Assembly (NCBI GenBank): GCA_027318475.1
Contig: DAHVPC010000012.1
Span: 1 to 33,906 of the forward strand
Direction of reading: 5' to 3'
From: Candidatus Cloacimonadota bacterium
GTDB taxonomy: Bacteria; Cloacimonadota; Cloacimonadia; Cloacimonadales; Cloacimonadaceae
DNA: 33,906 nt
Shown here: positions 13,141 to 26,710 of the stretch, piece after piece
Layout of the letters: every line of letters starts with the position of its first letter
Numbering within the stretch: position 1 is the first letter of the stretch
Notes under the pieces: model-generated
Databases searched by the model: none
Told to the model about the DNA's origin: nothing
What the model saw: only the letters and a program-made list of their open reading frames with translations
Translations under genes and position numbers: made by a program

Positions 13141-13206
13141 GTCCACCCGCAAGTCTCACACGATCTCCAAACCGGGGATGATAACATATAATTCTCGTGA
13201 ATCGAA

Positions 13207-13482
13207 TGGGTAAGCCCCGGAGGGTGCGTCAGAACATAGCGAGGGTGCGCAGCGACCGCGTCCCCACAAAGGAGCGCAGCGAATTTGTGGGGAGGGGAGC
13301 AGAGCCCCTCGTCCAGTCAGCCGCAATATTTTTTTCTCAGCCCTTCCCCCTCCCTGTAAACAAACCCCCAGGAGTTTGTTTACAGGGAGAGGGATGGGAA
13401 TTTACTTGTAAGGGAATGTCTTGCCGTTTCGAGGGGCTTCGCACCCTCGCTATGTTCTGACGCACCCTCCGGGGCTTACCCA
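13207..13482. repeat. 276-bp MITE-like element with 42-bp perfect terminal inverted repeats
   Basis: Positions 13207-13248 are an exact reverse complement of 13441-13482 (42/42). Inside are three further hairpins: CCCCACAAA/TTTGTGGGG (13262-13270 with 13284-13292), GAGGGG/CCCCTC (13292-13297 with 13305-13310), and a 16-bp perfect stem (13350-13365 with 13374-13389). No credible gene is inside. The termini end TGGG...CCCA. No clear target-site duplication is visible, so mobility is inference. Confidence 0.75.
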
Positions 13483-13575
13483 CTTGGTTTTTGAGAGAGT
13501 TAAATATTGACCCTTGGTAATATACGCGCTTTTTGTGCTTCCTTATTAAGTAGATTTTTTAAGGAAAGAAAATCC

Positions 13576-25912: not shown

Positions 25913-26043
25913 TGTTTAGGCTCCTAGTGTTCACTTTTCAATCGTTAGCAAATGCCTGACTGTGCAACGTCTGAGCCATGAAATCAGGCCTCAGGGCACA
26001 AGTTGAAATTTGCACAGGCCGAACAATCGCTCCTGCGACCAAT

Positions 26044-26096
26044 CCCGAAGGGATGAAACAACTTAGCCCAGGGTGTAGCGCAGCGGAACCCTGGGT
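26044..26096 (-). repeat. Palindromic repeat linked to the IS200-type gene, left copy
   Basis: Contains GCCCAGGGTGTAGCGCAGCG followed by GAACCCTGGGT: a hairpin of CCCAGGGT arms around a GTAGCGCAGCGGA loop, plus an AACTTAG link to a CCCGAAGGG hairpin. Read in reverse complement it matches the right-hand copy at 26711-26767, so the two lie inverted on either side of the transposase gene. Confidence 0.75.
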
Positions 26097-26142: not shown

Positions 26143-26583
26143 TCAATTTTTATGGAACCATTCATCGCTGACCTGGGCTTGTCCGAGTTTCTCGAAATAC
26201 GTTTTCATCTCTGATTCGAAAGTCCGCACCTTATGATGCTCCTTTTGATTGTCAATGTACTTTTGCACGCTGGGGATGTTGGTGTGGCTGACACCGAAGG
26301 CCGCGTAGCCCTCCTGCCATTGCATTCTGCCCTTACCTTGCGCATTGAACCATTTGGAGGAATTGCTCTTAATGGTTCGGATAAAATCCGCGATAGACAT
26401 GTCACGGGGCAAATAACACAGGATATGGACGTGATCCTGTGTGCCGTTGATCGTCACGGGATGGCCTTTGTGATTGGTTATTATGCCGTTGATGTAGGGA
26501 TGGAAGGAATCGTTAAGGAATCTCTGGTGCCTTTTCAAACCGAAAATGATATGCACGGCGAGCTGACAAAATGAGTGTGCCAT
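26143..26583 (-). CDS. IS200/IS605-type Y1 transposase (TnpA / RAYT-like)
   Basis: 146 aa, full length for the family. The HUH nickase motif is DHVHILCYLP (His-hydrophobic-His), and the catalytic tyrosine is in VQKYIDNQKEHH. The N-terminus MAHSFCQLAVHIIFGLKRHQ matches the first strand of the family (usually Y...HIVF..K). It nicks and rejoins single-stranded DNA at hairpin ends. The palindromic repeats on both sides look like its cognate hairpins or like REP-type elements tended by a domesticated RAYT. It stands between ssnA and ygeY, probably splitting an older continuous gene set. All key residues are present, so it may be active. Confidence 0.88.
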   Translation of the reverse strand: MAHSFCQLAVHIIFGLKRHQRFLNDSFHPYINGIITNHKGHPVTINGTQDHVHILCYLPRDMSIADFIRTIKSNSSKWFNAQGKGRMQWQEGYAAFGVSHTNIPSVQKYIDNQKEHHKVRTFESEMKTYFEKLGQAQVSDEWFHKN

Positions 26584-26636: not shown

Positions 26637-26685
26637 GGATCCCAGGGCAGTCACCTTGGGCTAATATGTGTCGCCCCTTCGGGGC
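26637..26685 (+). repeat. Palindromic repeat linked to the IS200-type gene, right copy A
   Basis: CCCAGGGCAGTCACCTTGGG hairpin followed by GCTAATATGTGTC and a CCCCTTCGGGG hairpin. It has the same two-hairpin layout as the copies at 26044-26096 and 26711-26767, with a different loop in the first hairpin. Confidence 0.65.
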
Positions 26686-26710
26686 TTTTTGATCAGGAGG
26701 CGTATCGGGT

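Follow-up and report, generated by a model that had tools for sequence, protein, structure and literature searches.

One of the closest described counterparts of the element reported here is a MITE of Microcystis aeruginosa, given in the available part of its source as an ISL3-type element of 187 nt with ends GGCTCTTCG and 8-nt direct repeats (PMC11448079). A second point of reference is the REPINs and BIMEs, the former being pairs of REP palindromes that form long hairpins, according to the section of the REPIN paper at hand (PMC3116915). Target duplications of 8 bp are not produced by IS200-type enzymes, as stated in an extract of PMC2817692. Two further lines of work touch on the locus, both through excerpts of the papers concerned: the Acido-Lenti-1 RNA (RF01687) is listed as an RNA candidate (PMC2864571), and template switching between imperfect inverted repeats is described as homogenizing their arms (PMC8604942).

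The window is the whole 33,906-nt stretch analyzed, from contig DAHVPC010000012.1 of a Candidatus Cloacimonadota bacterium (GCA_027318475.1). Judged from sequence, it holds a MITE that was most likely mobilized by a DDE transposase of the ISL3 type acting in trans. The reading as a whole, that of an old ISL3-mobilized MITE with REP-like cargo whose arms were homogenized after insertion, is considered quite probable. The element appears to occupy about 13188-13501. A first-pass annotation had placed it at 13207-13482, with perfect 42-bp terminal inverted repeats; the perfect arms are real and measure 43 nt, but they are not terminal. Positions 13207 and 13482 fall in the inner part of the real terminal repeats, whose ends lie about 19 bp further out. 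The sequence previously taken for the end, TGGGTAAGCCCCGG, is inner terminal repeat joined to a REP-like palindrome, and the real end starts GGCTCTCTTTC. The element comprises the following features.

13188 to 13211, forward strand: left outer terminal repeat, ISL3-type, decayed, aligned to the family end GGCTCTCTTTCAAAYCGAGTGGGT; its outer 19 nt equal the right end at 9 of 19 positions.
13207 to 13249, forward strand: left perfect arm, 43 nt, comprising the inner terminal repeat and the start of a REP-like unit.
13214 to 13231, forward strand: REP core GCCCCGGAGGGTGCGTCA, among 98 genome sites at up to two mismatches (reversed control 0).
13238 to 13312, forward strand: left REP-like hairpin (CGAGGG...CCCCTCG), read from the sequence and from the arm pair 13295-13311/13430-13446.
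13262 to 13270 and 13284 to 13292, forward strand: hairpin nested in the left REP-like hairpin, CCCCACAAA/TTTGTGGGG.
13341 to 13398, no strand assigned: central hairpin, with a 16-bp perfect stem at 13350-13365/13374-13389.
13430 to 13449, reverse strand: right REP-like hairpin CGAGGGGCTTCGCACCCTCG, which also scores as terminator-like, with equally many such scores in shuffles.
13440 to 13482, reverse strand: right perfect arm, 43 nt.
13458 to 13475, reverse strand: REP core GCCCCGGAGGGTGCGTCA, inverted, from the genome-wide core search.
13478 to 13501, reverse strand: outer terminal repeat at the right end, partly decayed.

The left perfect arm is the exact reverse complement of the right one; inverted matches in 100 Markov resamples of these 276 bases reach 18 nt at most. 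A repeat search extends the arm pairing to 61 nt at 89% (13193-13253/13436-13496) and adds inverted pairs of 28 nt (13341-13368/13371-13398) and 17 nt (13295-13311/13430-13446). The 16-bp perfect inner stem that had been described is present and reads CTCCCTGTAAACAAAC, and the interior consists of two REP-like palindromes, inverted, around the central hairpin. The claim that the element lacks coding capacity also holds: a search for frames of at least 80 aa returns one of 87 aa (13197-13460), which has no Pfam family match. The element thus has the short length (about 314 bp), non-coding sequence and terminal inverted repeats of a MITE.

Alignment of the copies shows similarity continuing beyond 13207 and 13482 to the family terminus GGCTCTCTTTCAAAYCGAGTGGGT. 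This 24-mer has 39 sites in the genome of origin (G000) at up to three mismatches and none in the reversed control, so that the family, which is genus-wide, is dispersed in several copies; a search for further copies had been proposed as a check. The end is present in 13 of the 41 genomes searched, with the genome of origin counted, and an exact degenerate end pattern occurs on 28 contigs of named genomes, 27 of them labelled Cloacimonadota or Cloacimonetes and one Pseudomonadota. The sole contig with the latter label carries a copy (L209, 3954-4306) that contains REP units and is flanked by a perfect duplication of 8 bp, a case of mis-binning or transfer. The genome of origin is an assembly of 2.34 Mb in 251 contigs and 89% complete. 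Contigs that start inside such elements include C8, C16, C19, C122, C173, C184, C195, C204, C221 and C224, which indicates that the assembly breaks there and that the copy numbers are lower bounds. The region has 131 local matches in the same genome, many of which pair one arm with another arm and hence do not represent copy number. Copies with the family ends but without the REP core also exist, among them C8, C169, C175 and C180 and the 195-196-bp copies of a related genome, G006. MITE ends adjoin or lie within other MITEs at L003 (1639-1725), L016 (1650-1690) and L178 (274-1923); the elements seem to insert near one another, with AT-rich duplications.

This distribution bears on whether the window element might instead be a structured regulatory RNA or terminator under selection at its locus. 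Folded as RNA, 13190-13500 is very stable (-202.5 kcal/mol, z = -19.8, equalled by none of 100 shuffles), a terminator-like hairpin lies at 13430-13449, and the element is flanked by two genes that share a strand, of which the one upstream encodes a product with a FlgD-like/type IX secretion tail and the one downstream a product with a type IX secretion sorting tail. Against a role in place, however, stand the dispersed, multicopy family with its target duplications and the lack of an in-place counterpart in 13 genomes of the genus, which is the reverse of the single copy conserved across relatives that had been named as favouring an RNA. No Rfam family matches inside the element at gathering score, and terminator-like matches are no more frequent than in shuffles. 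An RNA or terminator under selection is accordingly regarded as extremely improbable.

Target-site duplications argue for movement as a DNA element. Automatic pairing of ends (at least 19/24 identical, starting GG, with the nearest partner at 80-1000 bp) yields 43 end pairs in the relatives and omits decayed copies, including the one in the window. A perfect 8-bp target duplication accompanies 12 of these pairs, and 16 match at seven or more of eight positions, a number reached by none of 20,000 permutations. In the genome of origin, two of seven automatic pairs match at that level, and 442 of 20,000 permutations do as well. This pairing supersedes an earlier test on 18 hand-picked pairs and the window copy, in which some matches had already been seen by eye. 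Six of the eight 195-196-bp copies listed for G006 have perfect duplications. Two REP-bearing copies, L042 and L209, likewise have perfect 8-bp duplications, which indicates that the composite of MITE and REP units moved as one unit. Duplications are thus established for the family, which bears out the first-pass description as MITE-like, but none is visible at the window copy.

Empty sites, proposed as a further check, were not found. No relative aligned across the insertion of the window copy; one locus (L130) matches part of the upstream gene at 67%, and the element was not found there. For the REP-bearing L042, the joined flanks gave, besides its own locus, partial matches that nearly all covered one flank, and the junction was never crossed with both flanks. 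Duplications of 8 bp, unlike the products of IS200-type enzymes, imply a DDE enzyme.

The family of that enzyme is suggested by full-length elements elsewhere in the phylum. ISL3 transposases occur in 6 of 41 relatives and in 16 of 124 genomes of the phylum. Three loci (L228, L229 and L230) are complete ISL3 elements in which like ends flank the gene left and right, with direct repeats matching at 8/8, 8/8 and 7/8, so that the MITE family shares the 8-bp duplication of ISL3. L230, from the same family as the window genome, is spanned by a 413-aa frame, and its end reads GGCTCATTTTCAATTATAGTGGGTAAGCCCC, the likeness extending to the AGCCCC that leads on into the window element. At L197, a decayed ISL3 C-terminus runs into GGCTCTCTTTCAAACT. 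Like ends, sorted by reading, lie beside 13 of the 21 ISL3 loci fetched, including partial or cut genes (L195, L231, L233, L235, L237, L238, L239, L240 and L241), and are absent at eight (L193, L194, L196, L198, L227, L232, L234 and L236). The best of them is 20/24 identical and no identical end pair was found, the ISL3 ends as a whole being only 16-20/24 identical to the MITE consensus. Of 210 Markov resamples, 206 gave a best score per locus of 13-16/24, three gave 17 and one gave 18; with chance reaching 16-18, the scores of 16 (L229, L233 and L238) count only by their place beside the gene.

A MITE of some other DDE family that also makes 8-bp duplications would account for the partial likeness to ISL3 ends. 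It would also fit the searches of the genome of origin (89% complete and broken at repeats) and of G006, whose copies look youngest: neither returned an ISL3 gene, and the ISL3 assignment therefore rests on the relatives. The alternative family searched, IS1595, was nevertheless rejected as parent, as no such transposase turned up in 25 genomes, 13 of which belong to the genus, and the phylum's ISL3 elements agree with the MITEs in starting with GG, in having TGGGTAA at the inner end and in duplicating 8 bp. A parent outside ISL3 is unlikely on this evidence. A separate candidate, the ISL3 gene of G003 (L194), was set aside as its ends do not match; it is suspected to sit on a foreign contig in the G003 bin. 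The expectation that mobility would depend on a transposase supplied elsewhere is supported. The search for an end-matching transposase, proposed as a check, found similar ISL3 ends in relatives, identical ends nowhere and no ISL3 gene in the genome of origin.

The interior of the element points to a second kind of mobile DNA. The REP core GCCCCGGAGGGYGCGDCA has 98 sites in the genome of origin at up to two mismatches and none in the reversed control. Half of these (49/98) are no more than 600 bp away from a MITE end, in stretches that together make up 1.5% of the genome, and 27 of the 39 MITE ends have a REP core within the same distance. These counts use the ends alone and replace an earlier one whose pattern overlapped the REP start. 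Conversely, no clear MITE end lies near 22 of the 43 REP clusters, some of which are situated where a contig ends. Two genes for Y1 transposases are present in the genome. One, on another contig (L121), lies between REP units of opposite orientation, with the left end of a MITE upstream. The other lies in the window with its own flanking palindromes.

26041 to 26095, reverse strand: Acido-Lenti-1 palindrome beside the Y1 gene (RF01687, 45.5 bits).
26143 to 26583, reverse strand: Y1 (IS200-like) transposase gene, 146 aa (PF01797, 66.8 bits).
26641 to 26686, forward strand: Acido-Lenti-1 palindrome on the other side of the Y1 gene, inverted (RF01687, 41.6 bits).

The two Y1 proteins are 49% identical over 121 aa. 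The window gene is tied to this second palindrome class and not to the MITE-like element, and Acido-Lenti-1 makes two inverted matches inside each of two MITEs of the genome (L095 and L117). It appears that each Y1 gene has its own palindrome class and that both classes are found within MITEs; Acido-Lenti-1 may in this genome represent a palindromic DNA unit of REP-like type and not a gene for a small RNA. As a general palindrome of Y1 loci it was rejected, with no match at gathering score at the 20 relatives' Y1 loci searched, out of 30 fetched. Across 22 Y1 loci of the phylum (those 20, L121 and the window gene), 12 have flanking inverted repeats that exceed 99% of cross-locus controls. Against the IS200 model, the L121 protein clears the cut-off of 55 with 64.6 bits, and the window protein falls narrowly short of it with 52.5. 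Both lie far below the cut-off of 80 in the curated RAYT model (19.4 and 22.7 bits), and the arrangement is therefore termed RAYT-like and not RAYT. The REP units have heads of ATAG or TTAG in place of GT(A/G)G.

At L121 (7290-8156, G000:C133), the Y1 gene and REP units lie just inside a MITE left end, and the contig ends before any right end; the locus is possibly a MITE that has captured an entire Y1 gene. At L187 (508-1450, G003:C1), a second Y1 gene lies near an end of MITE type and is flanked left and right by different palindromes (CGGTGGCTTCAGCCACCG); a right MITE end was not found there.

Such features raise the question of whether the element is itself of REPIN or BIME type, an inverted REP pair that a Y1 (RAYT-like) transposase moves in single-stranded form, without participation of a DDE enzyme. 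The inverted palindrome pair, the long hairpin characteristic of REPINs (PMC3116915, in the portion available), the same palindromes around the L121 gene in inverted orientation and the repeats flanking 12 of 22 Y1 loci would all fit. Complete copies, including the REP-bearing L042 and L209, nonetheless have 8-bp duplications of a kind that the cited extract denies to IS200-type enzymes (PMC2817692), and copies exist with the same ends but without REP units. The duplications have already largely refuted movement by Y1 alone, which is rated improbable. Since palindromes of the same class flank a Y1 gene in this genome, the element is better read as a MITE carrying REP-like cargo.

The perfect arms had been taken to imply recent movement. 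A recent insertion whose outer repeats and duplication were lost or never present would explain the 43/43 identity of the arms. However, just outside them only 9 of 19 positions match, and the outer repeats are decayed on both sides at the expected distance; together with the lack of a visible duplication, this shows that the window copy is not a fresh insertion. The nearest copies, C99 and C17, have the right arm and interior in common with the window copy (C17 without the middle) but a different, longer left arm, and the interior differs from C99 by 17% (148 of 178 bases shared). A recent insertion is consequently a poor explanation, of low probability, and the inference of recency is not sustained.

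The window copy is old, with decayed outer ends and no visible duplication. At the divergence of its interior from that of C99, about 8 differences would be expected between independently evolving 42-bp arms; the arms show none (a simple Poisson model gives P of about 3e-4), so they were made or kept alike after the split from C99, whatever the ancestral state. Given the different left arm of the closest copies, the perfect arms are better explained by arm homogenization in an old copy than by recent movement. Selection for a perfect stem is a less likely cause, given that in both C99 and C17 the two arms differ from each other (24/37 identical in each). In a set of 12, the two arms of one element resemble each other more than they resemble the arms of other elements (a value equalled in 30 of 20,000 permutations), a result inflated by subfamily structure and drawn from elements picked for having both arms visible.

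The mechanism proposed is thus that of a non-autonomous DDE transposon, a MITE at about 13188-13501, which an ISL3-family transposase would mobilize in trans by recognizing ends of type GGCTCTCTTTCAAAYCGAGTGGGT and duplicating an 8-bp AT-rich target. The REP units would have entered the MITE as cargo, and template switching in the quasi-palindrome may then have kept or made the 43-nt arms identical after insertion. A broader idea, possible but less likely than not, is that ISL3-type MITEs serve as both landing sites and vehicles for Y1 REP palindromes: the REPs might spread as passengers of DDE elements, with the palindromes supplying a stem that template switching between the arms keeps perfect, and with at least two, probably three, palindrome classes in the same ends.

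The first-pass annotation thus identified a real element and typed it largely correctly, with the ends misplaced and recency unsupported. The family is new but of a type already known. The element is an ordinary MITE, of above-average interest through an interior loaded with REPs and through arms that are perfect in a copy otherwise decayed. A search of open-licence papers found no REP-loaded MITE and no MITE of Cloacimonadota. A little-studied phylum gains a family of MITEs whose ends and target duplications are defined. Perfect inverted arms are moreover no clock of recent transposition, as the window copy combines perfect inner arms with decayed outer ends.

Among known systems, the Microcystis aeruginosa MITE is alike in being non-coding, with ends that begin GGCTCT, 8-nt repeats and an inferred ISL3 parent. 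Unlike the present family, it has an ISL3 transposase with matching ends in the same genome; its sequence and phylum are also different, and the part of the report available does not mention REP-like pairs or a Y1 link (PMC11448079). The phylum's ISL3 elements (L228, L229 and L230) share the end type GGYTC...GTGGGTAA and the 8-bp target duplication but are about 1.35 kb long and coding, with ends only 16-19/24 identical to the MITE consensus. Acido-Lenti-1 exceeds its gathering score next to the Y1 gene of the window and within two MITEs of the genome, the window element itself not scoring; unlike the RNA candidate in the accessible text of PMC2864571, it behaves here as a dispersed inverted palindrome. 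REPINs, BIMEs and RAYTs, as far as the sections at hand describe them, resemble the present arrangement in their dispersed, inverted palindrome pairs, in the same palindromes flanking a Y1 gene and in the few distinct Y1 genes per genome (PMC3116915, PMC2817692). The Y1 proteins here nevertheless score below the curated RAYT cut-off, and ATAG or TTAG precedes the hairpin in place of the GT(A/G)G given in the RAYT extract (PMC2817692). Unlike in REPINs and BIMEs, the palindromes are enclosed in DDE ends with target duplications, and REP-kind palindromes riding in a DDE element would represent a route of spread that is not part of the REPIN model in the portion of its source available (PMC3116915).
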